Below, in pieces: positions 37,172 through 60,287 of a stretch of DNA of 64,000 nt; the first letter of the stretch is position 1; each line of letters opens with the position of its first letter. The stretch is from Deltaproteobacteria bacterium (GTDB taxonomy: Bacteria; Myxococcota; Myxococcia; SLRQ01), in the NCBI GenBank assembly GCA_029210625.1, contig JARGFU010000011.1, positions 62,001-126,000 on the forward strand, given 5' to 3'. Under the pieces are notes generated by a model. The model saw only the letters and a program-made list of their open reading frames with translations. It did no database searches and was not told the origin of the DNA. A program made the translations under genes and the position numbers.

Positions 37172-38542
<1,371 letters not shown>

Positions 38543-49245: not shown

Positions 49246-49411
49246 GTCCGGCGCGCACATGAGGGTGTGTCAACACGCCCACGGCCGGCCCCGGAGCCGG
49301 CCAAGATAGATCAGTGATTTCAGCCTCTTGGCGGGGGAGCCCCTGCTGGCACGAGCGCTGCTCTTCGAGGGAAGCACCACGCCCCTTCCCCCGAACCTCC
49401 AGGAGGAGATC

Positions 49412-50479
49412 ATGATCACCCGCCGCCCCGCCCACACCTCACCCGCCCTGGTGTCGACCCTGATGGTCGGCCTCATCGCCACCCTCTTCGCCCTGACCGG
49501 CTGCTCCCTCTTCGGGGAGGAGGAGGTCCCGGAGGCCGAGATCTCGGTCTCGAAGGTCCGGGGCTTCGACGGCAACTTCGCCCCGGTGGTGGAGGAGGCC
49601 CCCTCCGGCCCCTCGGCCGCCACCGTGGCCAGCGCCGACGTCCCCGAGGTCGAGGCCGAGCCCGCCGGCGACCTGCCCGCGCTGGTCGCCCTCCCCTCCA
49701 CCGGCGCCGCGCCGCCGGCCGAGCCCAAGCCCGAGCCCCTCGCCCTGATCCACCCCGACGACCCCGAGGTGGACCACCTCCTGGAGGCCGAGACCGCCCT
49801 CTCCGACGGTGACGCCGCCACCGCCCTGCTGCACTTCCGCCGCAGCGCCTTCGACCTCGACGACTTCGAGAGCTTCGAGGGCATCGGCCGCGCCGCCCGC
49901 GCCGCCGGAGAGCGGGAGCTCGCCCTGCGGGCCTTCGAGGCCGCCGCCGAGAAGGACGACGAGCTCGCCGAGCCCCTGGTCGCCGCGGCCCGGATTGCCC
50001 TGGGCCTGAAGCAGTACAAGAAGGGCCTGCAGCTCATCGACCAGGCCATCGCCCGCGAGCCGCGCAACGCCGAGGCCTTCAACGTGCGGGGCCGCCTCTG
50101 GATGTCGAAGCAGCAGTACCAGAAGGCGCTCATTGCCTTCGACCGGTCGATGGATCTCGATCCCGCCTACATCTGGGCCTACAACAACGCGGGCTACATC
50201 CACCTGGTCACCGGTGAGTACCAGGAGGCCGCCGACCTCCTCGAGGTCGCCACGACCCTCGAGCCCGCCAAGGCCTACATGTTCAACAACCTGGGCTTGG
50301 CCTACGAGAAGCTCGGCCGGGTCGAGGAGGCCCGCCAGACCTTCGTGAAGGCCCTCGACCTGCGGCCCGGCTACGTCAACGCCCACCTGAACCTCTCCCG
50401 GGTGAAGACCCGCATCGCCCTGGCCACCCCTCCGCCCGGATCCGCTTCCGAGGGTGGGTCGGAGATCTTCGTTCCCTAG
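49412..50479 (+). CDS. TPR-repeat lipoprotein
   Basis: A 355-residue protein from ATG 49412 with an AGGAGGAG ribosome site. The signal peptide LVSTLMVGLIATLFALTGC ends in lipobox LTGC. A Glu/Ala/Pro-rich region (about residues 30-120) leads to about six tetratricopeptide repeats (about 125-340), for example KQQYQKALIAFDRSMDLDPA and GEYQEAADLLEVATTLEPAK. The protein should sit at the outer membrane and bind partners there, as do pilus and cell-wall assembly factors. The PBP1a gene starts 137 bp downstream, after two hairpins, so it may be a functional partner. Confidence 0.85.
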   Translation: MITRRPAHTSPALVSTLMVGLIATLFALTGCSLFGEEEVPEAEISVSKVRGFDGNFAPVVEEAPSGPSAATVASADVPEVEAEPAGDLPALVALPSTGAAPPAEPKPEPLALIHPDDPEVDHLLEAETALSDGDAATALLHFRRSAFDLDDFESFEGIGRAARAAGERELALRAFEAAAEKDDELAEPLVAAARIALGLKQYKKGLQLIDQAIAREPRNAEAFNVRGRLWMSKQQYQKALIAFDRSMDLDPAYIWAYNNAGYIHLVTGEYQEAADLLEVATTLEPAKAYMFNNLGLAYEKLGRVEEARQTFVKALDLRPGYVNAHLNLSRVKTRIALATPPPGSASEGGSEIFVP

Positions 50480-50615: not shown

Positions 50616-53123
50616 ATGAGCAAGAAGACGCCCAAGACCGAGGAGCCCCAGAGCTCCGAAGCACGCCCGAGCCGGCTGCGGCGGCTCGCAGGCCTCGCGC
50701 TGAAGCTCGCCCTCCTCGGAGCCCTGCTGGGGATCGGCGGGCTGGGCCTCGGCTTCTGGTACCTCTCGAACGACCTGCCCTCCTTCGACTCGCTGGAGGA
50801 CTACGACCCGCCCCAGACCTCGCGGGTCTACGACGTCGAGGGCAAGCTCGTCGGCACCTACTTCCGCGAGCGGCGCACGGTCGTCCCCTTCGCCGCGATC
50901 CCCCGGGTCCTGCAGCAGGCGATGATCGCCGCCGAGGACGAGAACTTCTTCGAGCACGAGGGCCTCGACTACCTCGGCATCCTGCGGGCCGCCCTGAAGA
51001 ACGTGGCGGCCGGCCGGGTGAGGCAGGGGGCCAGCACCATCACCCAGCAGGTCGTGAAGACCTTCCTGCTCACCCCCGAGCGCAAGCTCAAGCGGAAGAT
51101 GAAGGAGATGATCCTCGCCCGCCGCCTCGAGCAGAACCTCTCCAAGGACGAGATCCTCTACCTCTACCTCAACCAGATCTACTTCGGGCACGGCCGCTAC
51201 GGAGTGGAGGAGGCCTCGCGCTACTACTTCGGCAAGTCGGTGGAGGACCTCGAGCTCGACGAGGCCGCGATCCTGGCGGGCCTGCCCAAGGCGCCGGCCT
51301 ACTACTCGCCCCGCCGCTACCCCGAGGCCGCCCGCAAGCGGCGCAGCTACGTGCTCGGGCGGATGGCGGCGGCCGGCTTCATCAGCGAGGGGGAGGCGAA
51401 GATCGCAGACGCGATCCCCATCCACGTCGCGCCCCTGCCGCCGCCGCAGGCCGGCGCCTCCTACCTGGAGGAGGTGCGCCGGCAGCTGATCGAGGTCCTG
51501 GGCGAGGAGGCGCTCCTCGAGGGTGGCCTGGAGATCCACCTGGCGATGAACGCCCGGATGCAGCAGGCCGCCGAGGACGGAGTGCGTGACGCCCTCCACG
51601 CCGTCGACCGCCGCCAGGGCTTCCGCGGCCCCCTCGTCCGCGTCTCGGCCGAGACCCGGGCGACGCTCGAGGAGAGCTTCGCCGAGGAGCTCCAGCGCCG
51701 CCGCGAGCGCGGCCAGCGGATGGAGCCCTGGATCTGGAACCTCGAGGAGCTGGCCCGCTGGGACGCCGGCGGCGAGACCCCTCCCCCCTTCGAGCTCACC
51801 CTCCCCGAGCCCGGCGAGCTGGTGGCCGGGCTGGTGATCGAGCTGCCCGACGAGAAGACCGCGCGGATCTCCCTCGGCTCCGGGAGCGGTACGGTCCGCC
51901 TCGAGGACCTGCGCTGGGCCCGCCCCTTCGACCTCGAGAAGGACACCGAGGCGCCCACGCGGATCAGCCAGGTGCTCGCCCCCCTCGACGTGGTCTGGGT
52001 GCGGCTGGACGCGGAGGCGCCCGCGACCCCGGGCGAGGACTCCACCGAGATCGCCCTGCACCTCTCGCAGCTGCCGGAGGTGCAGGGCGCCCTGGTGGCC
52101 ATCGACCCCCGCACCCGGGGCGTGGTGGCGATGGTGGGGGGCTACGACGCCACCCGGGACGCCTTCAACCGGGCCACCCAGGCCCGGCGGCAGCCCGGCT
52201 CCTCCTTCAAGCCCTTCGTCTACGGCGCCGCCATCGACACCGGCCTCTTCACCGCCGCCTCCCGGGTGCTGGACGCCCCGGAGGTCTTCCACGATCCCTG
52301 GACCGGCAAGGTCTGGAAGCCCCAGAACTACTCCCTGCGCTTCGACGGCGAGATGTCCCTTCGCCAGGCGCTGGCGCGCTCGAAGAACATCGTGGCCGTG
52401 CGCCTCATCGACAAGGTCGGCGTGGACACGGTCGTGGACTTCGCCCGGCGCGCCGGGATCGAGAGCAAGCTGCCCCGGGTGCTGCCCCTGGCCCTCGGCG
52501 CCGGCGAGGTGACCCCCCTGGAGCACGTCAACGCCTTCACCACCCTGGCGGCGATGGGCGTCCACGACCAGCCCCGGATGGTGCTGGAGGTGAAGAACCG
52601 CAACAAGGAGGTGATCCACCGCAGCGAGGCGCGGCCCGAGACCACCCTGCGGCCGGCGGTCACCTTCGTCCTCGCCGACCTGATGACCTCGGTGATGAAG
52701 GAGGGCACGGGGAAGCGGCTGAACCGGCTGGGCCGCACGGTGGCGGCCAAGACCGGCACCGCCAACGATCAGCGCGACGCCTGGTTCGTGGGCTTCACGC
52801 CGCAGATGGTCTGCGGCACCTGGGTGGGCTTCGACGTGCCGAAGATCCTCGGTCAGAACGAGTACGGCTCGAAGGCCGCCGGGCCGGCCTGGCTCGACTT
52901 CATGAAGGTGGCCCTCGAGGGCGAGCCCATCGACTGGTTCGATCCGCCGGAGGGCATCCGCTACCTGCGGGTCGACCCCGAGAGCGGCCTGCTCGCCCAC
53001 CCCGACGGGCTGGGCGTCTTCGAGCCCTTCGTCGCCGGCACCGAGCCCCTCGAGACGGCCCCGCCGCCCGACACGCTCCTCTCCGAGGATTTCCTCACCC
53101 TCGATCCGCGGGGTATTCCGTGA
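50616..53123 (+). CDS. Penicillin-binding protein 1A (bifunctional)
   Basis: An 835-residue class A PBP from ATG 50616; the frame is open upstream but has no plausible start there. One membrane segment lies at about residues 28-50. The GT51 glycosyltransferase has AAEDENFFEHEG (catalytic Glu near 107), GASTITQQVVK and KLKRKMKEMILARRLEQNL. The transpeptidase has SSFKP (S529), SKN (near 589) and KTGTAND (near 712). An extra region of about 150 residues (350-505) between the two domains carries an OB-fold-like part. It polymerises and cross-links peptidoglycan outside the inner membrane. The next gene starts with an overlapping GTGA. Confidence 0.95.
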   Translation: MSKKTPKTEEPQSSEARPSRLRRLAGLALKLALLGALLGIGGLGLGFWYLSNDLPSFDSLEDYDPPQTSRVYDVEGKLVGTYFRERRTVVPFAAIPRVLQQAMIAAEDENFFEHEGLDYLGILRAALKNVAAGRVRQGASTITQQVVKTFLLTPERKLKRKMKEMILARRLEQNLSKDEILYLYLNQIYFGHGRYGVEEASRYYFGKSVEDLELDEAAILAGLPKAPAYYSPRRYPEAARKRRSYVLGRMAAAGFISEGEAKIADAIPIHVAPLPPPQAGASYLEEVRRQLIEVLGEEALLEGGLEIHLAMNARMQQAAEDGVRDALHAVDRRQGFRGPLVRVSAETRATLEESFAEELQRRRERGQRMEPWIWNLEELARWDAGGETPPPFELTLPEPGELVAGLVIELPDEKTARISLGSGSGTVRLEDLRWARPFDLEKDTEAPTRISQVLAPLDVVWVRLDAEAPATPGEDSTEIALHLSQLPEVQGALVAIDPRTRGVVAMVGGYDATRDAFNRATQARRQPGSSFKPFVYGAAIDTGLFTAASRVLDAPEVFHDPWTGKVWKPQNYSLRFDGEMSLRQALARSKNIVAVRLIDKVGVDTVVDFARRAGIESKLPRVLPLALGAGEVTPLEHVNAFTTLAAMGVHDQPRMVLEVKNRNKEVIHRSEARPETTLRPAVTFVLADLMTSVMKEGTGKRLNRLGRTVAAKTGTANDQRDAWFVGFTPQMVCGTWVGFDVPKILGQNEYGSKAAGPAWLDFMKVALEGEPIDWFDPPEGIRYLRVDPESGLLAHPDGLGVFEPFVAGTEPLETAPPPDTLLSEDFLTLDPRGIP

Positions 53124-54535
53124 AGGTGCGCTGCAGACTCCGAGCGATCGTCGCGCTGGCGGCCCTTCTCCTTCTCTCCCTGGCTCCGGCGCTCGCTCGC
53201 GCGGCGCGGGAGTCCACCCCGATCTCCGCGATCGATCGGCTGGTGGACGACTTCGGGGCTCGGCTGGACGAGGCCCTGCCGGCCGTGGAACCCCGGAACC
53301 TCGCGCTGGTCTTCCGGGCCCGGGGCCCCGAGGACGGCCCCGCGGCGGGCGGCGAGCTCGGGCGCGTGGTCGAGGCCGCCCTGCCCGCCGCGCTTCGTGG
53401 CGCTGCCGGGATCACCCACGTCCACCTGCTCCCCCCTTCGGACCACGAGACCCACCTGCGCCAGGCCGCGCGGGCGGGCGCCACCCACCTCCTGGAGGTC
53501 AGCCTGCACCTGGTGGGCAGCGAGCTGCTCCTCACCGGTGAGCTCGCCCCGACCTGGGAGAACCTCTGGACCGGCGAGATCGTCGGCGAGACCACCACCT
53601 TCAGCGTGCGGACCCGGGCCGACCGCGCCGCCCTCCTCCTGGCCCGGGCAGCCACCGCCGCCGCCCCGAGCAGCACCCACCTGCGCCTCGTGCCCCTCGG
53701 CGAGCTCCCCGGTGAGGTCGTGGCCCTCTCCATCGGCGACGCCCGGGGGGACGGACAGCAGCTCCTGGCGGCCCTCGATCTGGAGGCGGTCACGCTCCAC
53801 CGCCTCCACGACGGGCGCCTGGAGGAGCTCGCCCGCCACGAGCTCTCGGATCGGGGGCGGGCCCTCGTCCGCCCGCGCTCCCCGACCGGCGGCGTGGCCA
53901 TCGCCAAGGTGGCCTTCGCCCCGGCCCTCACCTTCCGGCACGAGCGCCACAGCGCCGGCGCCGTCCTGCGCTTCAAGCGAGGCCGCCTGGAGCACCTGGC
54001 GGAGGCCCAGGACGTGCCCCTCTCCGCCACCGACGAGCTGCTCCTCTTCGGGGAGCTCGTCCCCGGCCAGAGCCGCTTCGGCCCCCGCCTGCGCCTCCAG
54101 GGCCCGGGGATGGTGGCCAACCTCGAGGTGGGCGGCGAGCTCCTCGAGGCCGCGCTCTCCCCGGCGGGAGACGAGCTGATGATCCTGCGCCCCGACCACA
54201 CCCTCGAGCGCTTCGCCCTGCGCCGGGACAAGAGCAGCGCCCGCCTCGAGCGCCTGCCGCTGCGCGCGCCCCCCGCGGGCCTCGGCCTGGCGATCGCCGA
54301 CCTCGACGGGGACGGCAGCCCCGAGCGCATCGCCTCGGCGGCCGAGCCCCCGGGCCTCGAGGATCGCCTGCAGATCGCCGAGCTCGCCGGCGAGGTGCGC
54401 GAGCTGCGCCCGATCCCCGGCGCCGTGCGCTGCGCCGCCACCGGGGACCTCGACGCCGACGGCCGCGACGACGTGGTGGTGGCGTCGATCCTGGGCGGCA
54501 CCACCTACCTCTACCTGCTCACGGGGGCCCCATGA
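53120..54535 (+). CDS. Exported protein with FG-GAP-like repeats
   Basis: A 471-residue exported protein starting with GTG 53120, coupled to the PBP1a stop (GTGA). The signal peptide is MKVRCRLRAIVALAALLLLS...ARA. Residues 35-160 form an alpha/beta region (RARGPEDGPAAGGELG, AGITHVHLLPPSDHETHLRQ), similar in feel to exported proteins that measure or bind ligands. The C-terminal part has two calcium-loop motifs typical of FG-GAP/VCBS repeats: ADLDGDGSPE (about 393-402) and GDLDADGRDD (about 449-458). A beta-propeller-like structure is plausible. Function unknown; coupling to PBP1a points to the cell wall. ATG 54532 of the next gene overlaps its stop. Confidence 0.75.
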   Translation: MKVRCRLRAIVALAALLLLSLAPALARAARESTPISAIDRLVDDFGARLDEALPAVEPRNLALVFRARGPEDGPAAGGELGRVVEAALPAALRGAAGITHVHLLPPSDHETHLRQAARAGATHLLEVSLHLVGSELLLTGELAPTWENLWTGEIVGETTTFSVRTRADRAALLLARAATAAAPSSTHLRLVPLGELPGEVVALSIGDARGDGQQLLAALDLEAVTLHRLHDGRLEELARHELSDRGRALVRPRSPTGGVAIAKVAFAPALTFRHERHSAGAVLRFKRGRLEHLAEAQDVPLSATDELLLFGELVPGQSRFGPRLRLQGPGMVANLEVGGELLEAALSPAGDELMILRPDHTLERFALRRDKSSARLERLPLRAPPAGLGLAIADLDGDGSPERIASAAEPPGLEDRLQIAELAGEVRELRPIPGAVRCAATGDLDADGRDDVVVASILGGTTYLYLLTGAP

Positions 54536-55893
54536 GCCACCGGACGAAGCTCGCCGCGCTCCTCTCCCTCACCCTCGGGTTGCTCGCGCCGGGCGCGGCC
54601 GGGGCCGCCGTGCGGCCGACCACCGGCGGGACCCTGCGCCTGGCCGTGCAGACGCCGGGGGCCACCGCCCCCGAGGCGCGGAGCCTCCCGGGGCGGATCC
54701 GCGCCAGCCTGGACGAGTGCACCCTCGGCGACCTCCTCGCCGGGCCGCCCCAGGTGGACGAGGAGGAGGACCGCCTCATCCTGCTGCTGGAGGAGGGGCT
54801 GGTCTTCCAGGACGGCAGCAAGCTCGACGCGGCGGCGGTGGTGGAGAGCCTCTCGGCCCACGCCCGGGGCAGCGGCGGCGTGGAGGCCTGGCGCCTGCTG
54901 GTGCTCGCCGGCGCGGCCGAGCGCATGAGCGGCGCCGAGGGCGAGCTGGGCCTGAAGGCCATCGGCGCGCGCCGCCTGGAGCTGCGCCTCTCCTGGCCCC
55001 TGGGCGCCGGCGCGGTGGAGCTCCTCTCCCACCCCGGCCTGCCCCTGCGCAGCAAGGGGGGCGCCCCCTGCGGCCCCTTCCAGGCGCGAGAGGGCGGCCG
55101 GGACGGAGTGCTGGTGCCCTTCGATCGCCACCCCCGGGGGCGCCCCTACTTCGACCGGGTCCAGCTCTTCTCGACCCGGGAGGGAAGCCGCCAGGGCAAG
55201 GCCGACCTGCGCCTCGAGGCCTCGGTCGACACCCCCCGGGAGCTCCCGCTGACGACCCGCAGCCTGACCTTCCTCCAGGTGAACGCCTCCCCCGCCCTCC
55301 GGGAGCAGATCGACGGCTCCCTCGATCGGAAGGCCATCGTCCGCTACCTGGTCGGCGGCCGGGCCCGGCAGGTCTCCACCCTGCTGCCGGACGCGCCGCC
55401 GGGCGCCTCCCGCAGCAGCGGTGAGGCGCCGCCCCGCCGCGCCCTCACCCTGGCCTTCGACGGGGAGGACCCCGTCCACCGCCGGATCGCCGAGCGGATC
55501 CAGGTGCGCCTCCACGACGGGGGCCTCGAGGTCGCCCTCCAGCCCCTCCCGGCGCGGGAGCGCGGCGCGCTGCTCACCGGCGCCACCGAGCTGGCCCTGA
55601 TCACCCTCCCCGGCCTCCCCCGGGATCCGGCCCGGGGCCTGGCCGCGGTCAGCCACGCCGTCCTCGGCGCCCGGGCCGCCCAGGAGGTCCTCGAGACCGC
55701 CGCCGCCGCCGAGCGGGCGGGCGGCGGGCTGGGGGCGGCCCTCGGCGAGCTCGAGGCCCGGCTGCCGGTCGTCTTCCTCTACGGGGAGGACGAGGTGGTC
55801 TGGATCGGAGATTCCCTGCAGGGCGCCGAGCCCTCGGGTACCCTACCCTTCGATCCCGGCGACCTCTGGCGCTGGGAGTCCTCGACCCGCTGA
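54532..55893 (+). CDS. Solute-binding-protein-like periplasmic protein (family 5-like)
   Basis: A 453-residue exported protein from ATG 54532 (ATGA overlap). The signal peptide is MSHRTKLAALLSLTLGLLAP...AAGA. The sequence TTGGTLRLAVQTPG at the mature start, LEEGLVFQDGSKLDAAAVVE (about residue 85), GGAPCGPFQA and QVNASPALREQIDGSLDRKA match oligopeptide-binding (DppA/OppA-type) folds. No lipobox is visible and no ABC permease gene is nearby. It is shorter than typical family 5 binding proteins (about 500-550) and diverged. It may capture peptides or muropeptides and report to the sensor kinase that follows 23 bp later rather than feed a transporter. Confidence 0.72.
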   Translation: MSHRTKLAALLSLTLGLLAPGAAGAAVRPTTGGTLRLAVQTPGATAPEARSLPGRIRASLDECTLGDLLAGPPQVDEEEDRLILLLEEGLVFQDGSKLDAAAVVESLSAHARGSGGVEAWRLLVLAGAAERMSGAEGELGLKAIGARRLELRLSWPLGAGAVELLSHPGLPLRSKGGAPCGPFQAREGGRDGVLVPFDRHPRGRPYFDRVQLFSTREGSRQGKADLRLEASVDTPRELPLTTRSLTFLQVNASPALREQIDGSLDRKAIVRYLVGGRARQVSTLLPDAPPGASRSSGEAPPRRALTLAFDGEDPVHRRIAERIQVRLHDGGLEVALQPLPARERGALLTGATELALITLPGLPRDPARGLAAVSHAVLGARAAQEVLETAAAAERAGGGLGAALGELEARLPVVFLYGEDEVVWIGDSLQGAEPSGTLPFDPGDLWRWESSTR

Positions 55894-55916
55894 CCTCCCT
55901 GGGCCCACGAGAAGCC

Positions 55917-57689
55917 TTGAAGCTCCGAACCCGCCTCTCCCTCGCCTTCACCCTCCTCTCGCTGATCCCCACCGCGGTGGTCGGCTGGGCGGCGCTGCGG
56001 ACCGTGCAGCGCAGCTTCGGGACGATGACGGCCCAGCGCCTCGGGGAGGCCGAGGCCGCCGCCGGCGCCGCGCTCGAGGATCAGCGGCGCGAGCTTCGCC
56101 TGCGCGCCCGGGCCTTCGCCACCGACTCCCCGGCGGTGCACCGGGCGGCGAAGGATCTCTACCTGGGGCAGGCCGAGCTGCCGGCCCTCCTGCCCCTGGC
56201 CGAGAGCCTGATGAGCGGCACCGGGCTGACCGCCCTCTACCTCCTCGACGCCGAGGGGAGCGTCGTCTCCTCCGGCCACCTGCCCGGCCGCTTCGGCTAC
56301 CCGGAGCCCGAGCTCCTCGCCCTGGCCCGGGCCGGCGCCGGCGCCGGCGAGGGGACCACCTTCCAGATCCGGGAGATCGAGGTGAGGCGCGGCGGCCGGA
56401 TCGAGACGGTGGTCGCCGCCCTGGTCGGCGCCCCGGTCCTGCCCTTCCCCCGCTCCGAGCCCTCCCTCCACGTGGTGGTGGGACGGGCCATCGACGACGG
56501 CCTCGCCGAGCGCCTGCGAGAGGTCAGCGGCGCCTCGGTGCGGATCGTCGACGCCGGGGGCCGCACCCTGGGCTCGGCGCTGCAGCCGAGCGAGAAGCCC
56601 ATCGGCCCGGACTGGCTCGACACCCTGGTGGAGGCCGCCGGCGGCGCGGGCGGCGCCCGCCTGCGCAGCATCGAGGTGCGCGACGGCCGGGGTGAGATCG
56701 TGGAGGTCCAGCTGCGGATCGGCACCGCCCTGCTGGCGCAGGCCCGGGGGAGGATCCTCCTGGGCGTGCTCGTCGCCGCCTTCCTGGTCCTCATCGCCTC
56801 GGTGCTGCTGGGCGGCGCGGTCTCGGCGCGGATCACCCGCCCGGTGACGGCGCTGGCCGAGTCCGCCGAGGCCCTCGGCCGGGGTGAGTACGACCGGCCC
56901 ACGAGCATCGACGCCTCGGGGGAGGTGAAGGCGCTGGTCGAGGCCTTCGAGGCCATGCGCCTGGAGATCCGCGCCTCCCACGACCGCATCGCCGCTGCGG
57001 AGCGGGTCGCGGCCTGGCAGGAGATCGCCCGGCGCCTCGCCCATGAGATCAAGAACCCCCTGACCCCCATCTCGATGGCCATCGAGACCCTGCGCCGGGC
57101 GAGGGAGAAGAACCACGCGGCCTTCGACGAGATCTTCGACGAGAGCAGCGCGGCCATCCTGGAGGAGGTCGCGGCGCTGCGGCGGATCGTGGACGAGTTC
57201 GCCCGCTTCGCCCGCCTGCCGGCGCCACAGCCCCAGCCGACCACGGTCCGGGAGCTCTTCGAGACCACCACCGGCCTCTTCCCCGAGGCCCCCGAGGGCA
57301 TCGTCATCGCCACCGAGATCCCGGAGGCCCTCCCCCCCCTGGAGATCGACCGGGGCCAGCTCCAGCAGGTGCTGCTGAACCTGGTGAAGAACGCCCTCGA
57401 GGCCCTCCAGGGCCGCGACGACGGCAAGATGGGCGGGCGGGTGCGCCTGCGGGCCGAGGCCGTCACCCAAGGCGTCGCGCTGCGGGTCGAGGACGACGGG
57501 CCGGGCATCCCCGAGGAGAGCCTGGCCGACGTCTTCACCCCCTACTTCACCACCAAGGAGAGCGGCACCGGGCTGGGGCTCGCGATCTGCCACCGGATCG
57601 CCACGGAGCATGGCGGGCACCTGGCCGTGGAGAGCGAGGTGGGCTCGGGCACGACCTTCGTGCTCACGCTGCCCGTGGCGGAGTCGTGA
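55917..57689 (+). CDS. NtrY-like sensor histidine kinase
   Basis: A 590-residue kinase starting with TTG 55917; the nearest in-frame ATG is well inside the first domain. A membrane segment at about 8-28 and a second at about 283-305 bracket an extracytoplasmic sensor of roughly 250 residues, with dCache-like appearance. A HAMP domain follows (about 303-355: RITRPVTALAESAEALGRGE). The His is in RLAHEIKNPLTPISMAIETL (about 375). The ATPase has LLNLVKNALEAL, EDDGPGIPEESL, FTPYFTTKESGTGLGLAI and SEVGSGTTFVLTLP. NtrY/NtrB-type kinases usually partner NtrC-type regulators; one is encoded at 37172. The sensor may read the periplasmic proteins encoded upstream. Confidence 0.92.
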   Translation: MKLRTRLSLAFTLLSLIPTAVVGWAALRTVQRSFGTMTAQRLGEAEAAAGAALEDQRRELRLRARAFATDSPAVHRAAKDLYLGQAELPALLPLAESLMSGTGLTALYLLDAEGSVVSSGHLPGRFGYPEPELLALARAGAGAGEGTTFQIREIEVRRGGRIETVVAALVGAPVLPFPRSEPSLHVVVGRAIDDGLAERLREVSGASVRIVDAGGRTLGSALQPSEKPIGPDWLDTLVEAAGGAGGARLRSIEVRDGRGEIVEVQLRIGTALLAQARGRILLGVLVAAFLVLIASVLLGGAVSARITRPVTALAESAEALGRGEYDRPTSIDASGEVKALVEAFEAMRLEIRASHDRIAAAERVAAWQEIARRLAHEIKNPLTPISMAIETLRRAREKNHAAFDEIFDESSAAILEEVAALRRIVDEFARFARLPAPQPQPTTVRELFETTTGLFPEAPEGIVIATEIPEALPPLEIDRGQLQQVLLNLVKNALEALQGRDDGKMGGRVRLRAEAVTQGVALRVEDDGPGIPEESLADVFTPYFTTKESGTGLGLAICHRIATEHGGHLAVESEVGSGTTFVLTLPVAES

Positions 57690-57905: not shown

Positions 57906-60287
57906 TCAGAAGCTGGCGCAGGCCGCCGCCACCTCGGTGGTGGTGTCGGCCGTGACGGTCTGATTTGCGGCCACCGCGGTCAGAACGACCTGGAAGACGT
58001 CGTCGTCGGTCTCGTTGGTGCAAGCCGCGTCGGCGTTGATGTCCACGTAGATGTCGACGGTGTAGTCGCCGCCATCGGGGAGGATGTCGTTCCAGGTGAA
58101 GGCGAAGGGACCGGCGCCGACACCGATGGTATCGGTGCCGGAGGCGATCTCTGTGCCCGCGGCGTCACGCACGGAGGCGTAGACCATGTCGCCGTTGGTG
58201 CCGTTGGTGTTGCTGCCGTCGACGGTCAGGTTCCACATCTGGGTGGCGACGCAGAAGCCGAGGCTGACGTCGCAGACGCCCGGGCCGCAGTCGGCGTCGG
58301 TGGTGCAGCCCGCCACGCAGCGGTCCTCACCCATGGGGCCGGCGCCGGCCTCGCAGGTGCCGTGCCAGCAGTCGGTGCCGGCGGCGCAGGTGGCCTCGCA
58401 CTGGCCGGTGGGGCCGTTGCAGAGGTAGGTGCCGCGCTCGCAGAAGCCGACGGCCGGAGCCGCCGCGGCGTTCGCCACGCAGGCCAGGCCGCCGCCGCAC
58501 TCGAGGTCCGAGTCGCAGGGGGAGGCGCAGCCACCGGCGGTGGCGGGGTTACCGCCAGCGTCGAGGACGTTGATGGAGCCGGCCCAGTAGACCTGACCGC
58601 TGTTGCAGTACTGGTTGACCTCGGCGACGCCGCTCAGCGGCATCACGCAGGTGTTGGTGGCCAGATCGCAGCGCTCCTGGCGGGTCACGCCCTGGGAGAT
58701 CGTCTGGACCGGGCAGTCGGCGTCGACCTGGCAGTAGCCGCAGTCGGCGTTGGTCTCGCAGCCCATGAAGCAGAAGGCGCCGGCCGAGTCGTAGAGGCAG
58801 AGGTCCATGGCGTCGCCGGTGAGGAACTCGAGGCGCGAGCAGGCGCCGCCCACGGTCGCGGCGTTGCAGTCGGCGTCGGCGGTGCAGCCCTCGTAGCAGA
58901 TGAGCGCCACGTCGGTGCCGAGGTTCAGCTCCATGCAGTCGCGGGCGCCGCAGGGGGCCGGGGTGTCGGCGCAGGAGTTGCCCTCGACCACGTTGTAGTT
59001 CATGCAGGCGTTGAAGGTCGCCACGTCGCCGGAGACGAAGGCCACCTCGGCCGGATCGCAGAACTGGCCGGCGTCGCAGTCGGCGTCGACGGTGCAGCCG
59101 TTGTAGCAGATGAAGACGTCGGTCCCGCCGATGTTCACCGAGGTGCTGTCGGCCATGTTGGTGCCGGCGCAGCCCGCGGCGGAGGCGGCGATGAAGAAGG
59201 CGTCGTAGTTGCTCTCGATCTGCGGCGAGGGGGCGCAGGTCGCGGTGCCGTCGGCGTTGGTGAGGGTCTGGCAGGCGTTGACGTCGGCCGGATCGCAGTC
59301 GGTCATGCAGCCGGTCAGGCCGATGCCGAGGCCCTGGCAGGTCTCACCGGCGTCGCAGGCCAGCACGGTGTTGCCGGTGGCGTCGAAGGGATCGAGGCCG
59401 AGGTGGCAGGAGAGGGACATGCACATGGCGCCGCCGGAGAAGTCCACGCAGGCGGAGCCGGCCTCGCACTGATCGGCGACGTCCGGATCGCAGGGGGCGC
59501 CGTTGGCGCGGCAGCCGGTGGTGCACTCGGACTGGTCGAAGATCGGGAAGCAGTAGTCGGCCGGCGCGCCCGAGGAGCTGATGCACTGCTGGTCGGTCGG
59601 GCAGTCGCCGATGTTGACGTCGCAGGCGTCCACGCACACCCCGTCGCAGAAGGAGCCGGTGGGGCACTCGGAGTCGCTGTTGCATCCCTTGGTGCAGTAG
59701 CCGCCGCGGATGCCGTAGCGGGCCTCGTCGAAGCACTCGAGGCCAGCGCCCACGGCGCAGTCGCTGTTCACGGTGCAGGGAGAGCCCGTCTCACCCGCGA
59801 TGGGCAGGCGGATGATGCACTCGCCGGTGGTCTCGTCGCAGTTCTCGTTGAACTCGGGGCAGCCGTCGGTGATGCAGGCGGCCTCGCAGGAGGGCGGATC
59901 GGCGAGCTGGTTGCAGTTGAAGTCCACCGGGCAGCCGTCGGGCTGGGTGGTGTCGTTGGTGCAGACCTTCTGCACGCAGGCGCCGGTGCCCGCGCCGGCC
60001 TGGCACTGGGTCTCGTCGCAGGTGGTCCGGGGGTCCGGGCAGGTGGCCGCGGTGCAGCACACGCCGGTGCACTCACCGGTGGCGGGATCGCAGGTCATGC
60101 CGCCCTGGCAGGGGGTGGTCCGGGCCAGGCAGAGGTCGGCGATGTCCTCGCACTCGTTAGTGTCCAAGTTGCAGGTCTGGTTGGTGCCGCAGTCGGCGTT
60201 GGCTTCGCACTCCTTACCCGGACAGCCAGACAGGACGACGACCGCGAAGAGCGCGATCGTGGCCTGGAAGAACGTGGTGAACCTCAT
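57906..60287 (-). CDS. Large cysteine-rich lipoprotein
   Basis: A 793-residue lipoprotein with a GGAGGGG ribosome site. The signal peptide MRFTTFFQATIALFAVVVLSGC ends in lipobox LSGC. The mature protein has scores of cysteines in CNAD/CGxxQxC-like units (CEANADCGTNQTCNLDTNEC, CNSDSECPTGSFCDGVC), resembling EGF-like or Dickkopf-like disulfide knots. A short beta domain (about 700-793) ends it. It is Thr/Asp/Ala-rich and acidic. It is likely surface-exposed and disulfide-stabilised, so DsbA/DsbB encoded at 39771-40870 are plausible folding factors. No catalytic motif was seen. A strong terminator follows. Confidence 0.87.
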   Translation of the reverse strand: MRFTTFFQATIALFAVVVLSGCPGKECEANADCGTNQTCNLDTNECEDIADLCLARTTPCQGGMTCDPATGECTGVCCTAATCPDPRTTCDETQCQAGAGTGACVQKVCTNDTTQPDGCPVDFNCNQLADPPSCEAACITDGCPEFNENCDETTGECIIRLPIAGETGSPCTVNSDCAVGAGLECFDEARYGIRGGYCTKGCNSDSECPTGSFCDGVCVDACDVNIGDCPTDQQCISSSGAPADYCFPIFDQSECTTGCRANGAPCDPDVADQCEAGSACVDFSGGAMCMSLSCHLGLDPFDATGNTVLACDAGETCQGLGIGLTGCMTDCDPADVNACQTLTNADGTATCAPSPQIESNYDAFFIAASAAGCAGTNMADSTSVNIGGTDVFICYNGCTVDADCDAGQFCDPAEVAFVSGDVATFNACMNYNVVEGNSCADTPAPCGARDCMELNLGTDVALICYEGCTADADCNAATVGGACSRLEFLTGDAMDLCLYDSAGAFCFMGCETNADCGYCQVDADCPVQTISQGVTRQERCDLATNTCVMPLSGVAEVNQYCNSGQVYWAGSINVLDAGGNPATAGGCASPCDSDLECGGGLACVANAAAAPAVGFCERGTYLCNGPTGQCEATCAAGTDCWHGTCEAGAGPMGEDRCVAGCTTDADCGPGVCDVSLGFCVATQMWNLTVDGSNTNGTNGDMVYASVRDAAGTEIASGTDTIGVGAGPFAFTWNDILPDGGDYTVDIYVDINADAACTNETDDDVFQVVLTAVAANQTVTADTTTEVAAACASF

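Follow-up and report, generated by a model that had tools for sequence, protein, structure and literature searches.

What could join a cell-wall synthase, two exported proteins and a sensor kinase in a single run of genes? This question is raised by positions 50616-57689 of the window (the whole 64,000-nt stretch of Myxococcota DNA analysed here), where an earlier note had placed four plus-strand genes encoding a class A penicillin-binding protein (PBP1A), an FG-GAP protein (FGGAP), a solute-binding-like protein (SBP) and a histidine kinase (HK). All four are present there, and the junctions are those described: the FG-GAP gene begins with a GTG inside a GTGA overlap, the SBP start lies inside an ATGA overlap, and a 23-bp gap separates the SBP gene from the kinase gene, whose TTG start is backed by an N-terminus, M-R-L-R-T-R, that is conserved among relatives. 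However, the first gene of the conserved unit is that of a TPR lipoprotein, one gene before the PBP1A start assigned earlier, and the candidate sigma-54 promoter likewise falls outside those coordinates, as does an NtrC-type regulator that is the likely partner of the kinase (Table 1). The ATG of the TPR gene has GGAGGA upstream, and the 136 bp between this gene and the PBP1A gene could leave room for a further promoter.

Table 1. Genes and candidate regulatory sites of the operon (positions within the window)
Feature	Position	Strand	Basis
NtrC-type response regulator	37172..38542	+	Pfam, 67% identity to G164 regulator, synteny
Candidate enhancer site GTGTCAACACGCCCAC	49267..49282	+	One mismatch from GTG[TG]C-N6-G[AC]CAC
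Candidate sigma-54 (-24/-12) promoter CTGGCACGAGCGCTGCT	49346..49362	+	Pattern match, conserved position
TPR lipoprotein	49412..50479	+	Pfam, lipobox LTGC, conserved neighbour
Class A PBP1A	50616..53123	+	Glycosyltransferase, OB-like, transpeptidase; catalytic motifs
Exported TolB-shaped FG-GAP protein	53120..54535	+	N-terminal alpha/beta domain, FG-GAP beta-propeller
Exported SBP_bac_5-fold protein (SBP)	54532..55893	+	Profile, fold search
Membrane histidine kinase (HK)	55917..57689	+	TM, periplasmic region, TM, HAMP, HisKA, HATPase

Gene order across Myxococcota and variant loci

Of 195 Myxococcota genomes, 96 yielded an FGGAP homolog and 103 an SBP homolog, and about half of the genomes gave no match to either at the sensitivity used. 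The homologs are only ~20-33% identical to the window proteins and are still adjacent and in order, which exceeds what chance would produce. PBP1A, FGGAP, SBP and HK follow each other in a row in 64 of the 80 loci fetched, with some genomes represented twice. By set, thresholded profile searches recovered this order in 30/39 loci of the first and 34/41 of the second, named set, which overlap in genomes and so do not add up as evidence; where the row is incomplete, the contig mostly ends inside the locus. The same searches returned TPR-PBP1A-FGGAP-SBP-HK as the recurrent fuller order. Carriers belong, in the class of the window, to families f1, f3, f7, f8 and f9 and, in another class, to f11; Myxococcus xanthus, Corallococcus, Archangium and Hyalangium are among the named records. 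As the species are related, these counts are not independent. The order reaches beyond the closest relatives, to a number of families within the class and to one outside it, and the idea of a joint system, which the earlier note had made dependent on this point, survived the comparison.

Flanking genes vary from family to family, with some other neighbours common within f7. In the window, a minus-strand gene (57906-60287) converges on the operon from downstream; its product is a Cys-rich protein, exported and 793 residues long, without a Pfam match. Just past the kinase of another locus, a convergent gene (L070:3282-7106) encodes a large protein (~1250 residues) that combines an AAA domain at its N-terminus with TPRs, a sigma-54 activator module and an HTH, and equivalents occur in several f7 genomes (L069, L072, L073, L077, L078 and L079).

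Two variant loci bear on the question of which genes form the core. In G183 (f25) the locus comprises the regulator, TPR, FGGAP, an SBP-like reading frame found by eye and HK, with no PBP1A between TPR and FGGAP. In a metagenome-assembled genome from a different, small phylum, the gene of a canonical SBP_bac_5 protein overlaps a kinase gene by ATGA, and neither PBP1A nor FGGAP is found at the locus. Such variants point to the SBP-HK pair as the probable sensory core. Another genome of this phylum (G198) encodes an exported protein (L206:254-1168) directly before its SBP_bac_5-like gene; by eye the C-terminal half of this protein has a TolB-N/CsgG-type alpha/beta look, which Pfam does not confirm.

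Since the large SBP alignment used as a genome-scan query held no conserved stretch, the genome-wide motif scan was run with a subset of 12 SBP sequences and returned 40 loci. By record title or linked genome all of these are myxobacterial or deltaproteobacterial save L136, whose phylum is represented by four genomes in the set, two of them with an SBP. One locus, L119 (BNCN01000006.1), is titled Comamonas sp. KCTC 72670 and carries the full myxobacterial operon; its organism label looks wrong, and L119 and contig 6 of G126, from Myxococcota family f7, both comprise 603379 bases.

Features of the encoded proteins

The window PBP1A scored 591.6 bits against TIGR02074 (cut-off 508.75) and combines glycosyltransferase and transpeptidase domains in which the catalytic motifs AAEDENFF, SSFK, SKN and KTG are all intact, as required of a class A PBP. 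Outside the operon, genome G000 encodes a second PBP1A-like protein and one more class A PBP (contig 14:70293-72719, contig 1:506512-508164), the last of these being a 792-residue frame that is possibly PBP1C-like.

The AF2 model of the FG-GAP protein (pLDDT 88.7) consists of an N-terminal alpha/beta domain followed by a beta-propeller, which is the two-domain architecture of TolB. Its top PDB match was TolB itself (7mx5, E 1.3e-10), TolB/Pal (4r40) was also matched, and the alignments to TolB covered ~450 columns and spanned both domains. The TM score of the whole superposition was low (0.29), as expected if the modelled protein and TolB differ in domain angle. In sequence, the operon's protein has an FG-GAP propeller in place of the TolB signature, and no TolB Pfam family was matched at E<=1 among 34 FG-GAP members.

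The window SBP scored 31.6 bits against PF00496 (SBP_bac_5), slightly under the cut-off of 32.4, and 33 of 36 SBP members matched this profile at E<=1. Its structural model (pLDDT 76.6) retrieved family-5 SBPs including NikA, AgaA, MppA and DppE, so that profile match and type II SBP fold together place it in SBP_bac_5. It thus shares fold and, by profile, family with MppA, DppE, OppA and NikA. It differs from them in being encoded without a permease and coupled to a kinase; no permease or transporter genes lie alongside it in the window, as had been noted before. In MppA, Trp436, Val437 and Asp439 contact the free amine of the ligand (PMC6022919). No W or D occupies the positions aligned with Trp436 and Asp439 in the 36 SBP members, nearly all of which carry an LLPPxPGPAL-like sequence in place of the amine-pocket motif. 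Binding of murein tripeptide in the MppA mode is not supported, the amine-anchoring Asp being absent from the SBP.

The kinase has two membrane segments enclosing a periplasmic region of ~240 residues, followed by HAMP, HisKA and HATPase domains. The periplasmic region gave a weak Cache/CHASE4-like match. Its description as NtrY-like proved to be a loose label: no PAS domain was found between HAMP and HisKA in the window kinase or among the families shown for 20 members, and no NtrY model was among the kinase matches listed.

A candidate sigma-54 promoter and an NtrC-type regulator

The candidate promoter CTGGCACGAGCGCTGCT lies 50 bp upstream of the TPR start; its pattern matches nowhere else in the window, against an expectation of 0.36, and the candidate enhancer GTGTCAACACGCCCAC sits 63 bp ahead of it. 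Perfect copies of the palindrome GTG[TG]C-N6-G[AC]CAC occur in relatives from G164, f3, f11 and f25. Elements resembling -24/-12 sequences precede TPR in most relatives. Family f3 lacks a TPR gene at the locus; there the regulator directly precedes PBP1A, and the -24/-12 element stands directly before PBP1A. Promoter and palindrome were found in the right arrangement upstream of TPR in 18 of 25 regions and upstream of PBP1A in 8 of 35 (mostly f3), the enhancer motif being counted on the same sequences in which it was first noticed. The arrangement was absent from all 233 background genes of the same loci and from the regions upstream of FGGAP, SBP, HK and regulator genes. The combined strict pattern occurs once per genome, at the operon, in G164, G031 and G032, and has matches also away from the operon in G007 and G003. 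The promoter pattern alone was not enriched in the window's genome (17 matches vs 19 for the reversed control) and was dropped as evidence in its own right; the case therefore rests on conserved position.

The regulator encoded at 37172-38542 combines, by Pfam and sequence, a receiver domain, a sigma-54 AAA+ domain with GAFTGA and a Fis-type HTH, which assigns it to the NtrC class. Such a regulator adjoins the operon in G164, which represents the sister genus, as well as in families f3 and f25 and part of the f7 genomes. The best match of the operon-adjacent G164 regulator in the window's genome is this gene (67% identity), the next paralog reaching 49%. At a strict threshold, orthologs were detected in 120 of 195 Myxococcota genomes. 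All 58 genomes that have regulator and SBP on one contig place the regulator 4.4-143 kb upstream, in the same orientation; these genomes are related and thus do not represent 58 independent events. This fits an ancestral operon neighbour that may have been displaced by insertions. Because the ortholog adjoins the operon in several families and the same-strand synteny is upheld, the regulator is likely to be the partner of the operon kinase.

A kinase with an NtrC-family regulator recalls NtrYX of Rhodobacter sphaeroides, whose regulator occupies sites ahead of both its own operon and cell-envelope genes (PMC7240162). Unlike in NtrYX, no PAS domain was detected in the operon kinase, the regulator scored 438.2 bits and remained under the NtrX equivalog cut-off of 600, and a synthase and exported proteins are encoded inside the operon.

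Proposed function and competing explanations

The architecture and regulation of the operon are well supported by these observations; the signal and the protein contacts we infer. We consider it probable, though by no means certain, that this two-component operon, characteristic of Myxococcota, serves cell-wall homeostasis, depends on sigma-54 and controls its own expression. A wall or envelope signal, for which wall state, wall fragments or PBP1A activity are candidates, would reach the SBP and the TolB-like protein and then the kinase, with the SBP acting in the periplasm as kinase co-receptor. The periplasmic TolB-like protein and the TPR lipoprotein would link outer membrane, wall and PBP1A. 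The kinase encoded at the operon end would phosphorylate the NtrC-type regulator encoded upstream, which in its phosphorylated form would bind the palindromic site and fire the sigma-54 promoter, leading to more TPR lipoprotein, PBP1A, TolB-like protein, SBP-like protein and kinase. It is possible, and we propose it tentatively, that this is a feedback loop dedicated to the cell wall, in which the TolB-shaped FG-GAP protein and an SBP that no longer serves transport inform the kinase directly about the condition of PBP1A or the wall and the kinase switches the synthase operon by way of its own sigma-54 activator, SBP and kinase being the older part to which PBP1A was added.

Separate periplasmic binding proteins serve membrane kinases in LuxP-LuxQ, TorT-TorS and ChvE-VirA. 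A similar pairing may exist here, with the differences that the binding protein would be a family 5 SBP and that PBP1A and a TolB-like protein are encoded in the same operon. The earlier proposal that the exported proteins monitor cell-wall fragments or PBP activity and signal to the kinase is supported in its second part: the FGGAP-SBP-HK order, the f25 locus and the SBP-HK pair of the other phylum all favour a link to the kinase. With regard to its first part, sensing need not concern PBP1A, because the locus of one family lacks it.

The TPR lipoprotein, the TolB-like and the SBP-like protein might instead be mainly accessory factors of PBP1A, akin to LpoA, LpoB and CpoB, with a kinase that responds to some unrelated cue and does no more than adjust how much of the synthase complex is made. 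In E. coli, CpoB, TolA and LpoB form a complex with PBP1B, and CpoB and LpoA contain TPR domains (PMC4458516). The operon resembles Tol-Pal with CpoB-PBP1B-LpoB in its TolB-like two-domain FG-GAP shape and in the linkage of a TPR protein to a class A PBP, and it differs in that TolA/Q/R and Pal were not recognised in the window operon. The translational overlaps of PBP1A, FGGAP and SBP would suit such a complex, as would TPR and alpha/beta domains that recall LpoA/CpoB and LpoB/TolB. We regard this explanation as rather unlikely, given that the f25 locus retains regulator, TPR, FGGAP, SBP-like frame and HK without PBP1A and that an SBP-HK pair occurs without PBP1A or FGGAP in another phylum.

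Nutrient or ligand sensing, in which the SBP would bind a periplasmic small molecule and trigger the kinase with PBP1A as a growth-related output, agrees with the SBP_bac_5 fold and its best matches (NikA, AgaA, MppA and DppE among them), with the Cache/CHASE4-like sensor region and with the lack of permease genes in the window operon. It appears improbable in view of the LLPPxPGPAL-like replacement of the pocket motif in nearly all members and the constant linkage to wall and envelope proteins. That conserved neighbours without joint function were held together by slow rearrangement, as the relatedness of the genomes and the further neighbours common within f7 might suggest, is hardly credible against an order kept at 20-33% protein identity and across classes while flanks change, a promoter and enhancer-like arrangement common to the loci, and the regulator synteny.

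Alongside NtrYX and the CpoB-PBP1B-TolA-LpoB complex, WigKR of Vibrio cholerae counts among the nearest described systems: this two-component system responds to cell-wall damage, read out as pbp1a induction (review PMC6863773). Here, in contrast, the regulator is of NtrC type, the promoter is a predicted sigma-54 promoter, and kinase, PBP1A, TolB-like protein and SBP are encoded in one conserved operon. The same review describes the molecular sensing of wall damage in Gram-negative bacteria as unresolved, and the open literature searched contained no description of this operon. The locus would represent a candidate sensor chain encoded beside its own output, for which the promoter is defined and a candidate operator available. 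It also suggests testable roles for a kinase and a regulator that had no partner, and for two families of exported proteins whose annotation is poor.

The operon occurs in cultured species including Myxococcus xanthus, where deletion of all three class A PBP genes leaves cells viable (PMC10475089). Of the two PBP1A genes found, the operon copy would more likely be PBP1a1 than PBP1a2 as named in that study, since the catalytic E97 (E97A, PMC10475089) is possible only in the other copy, with an alternative start.
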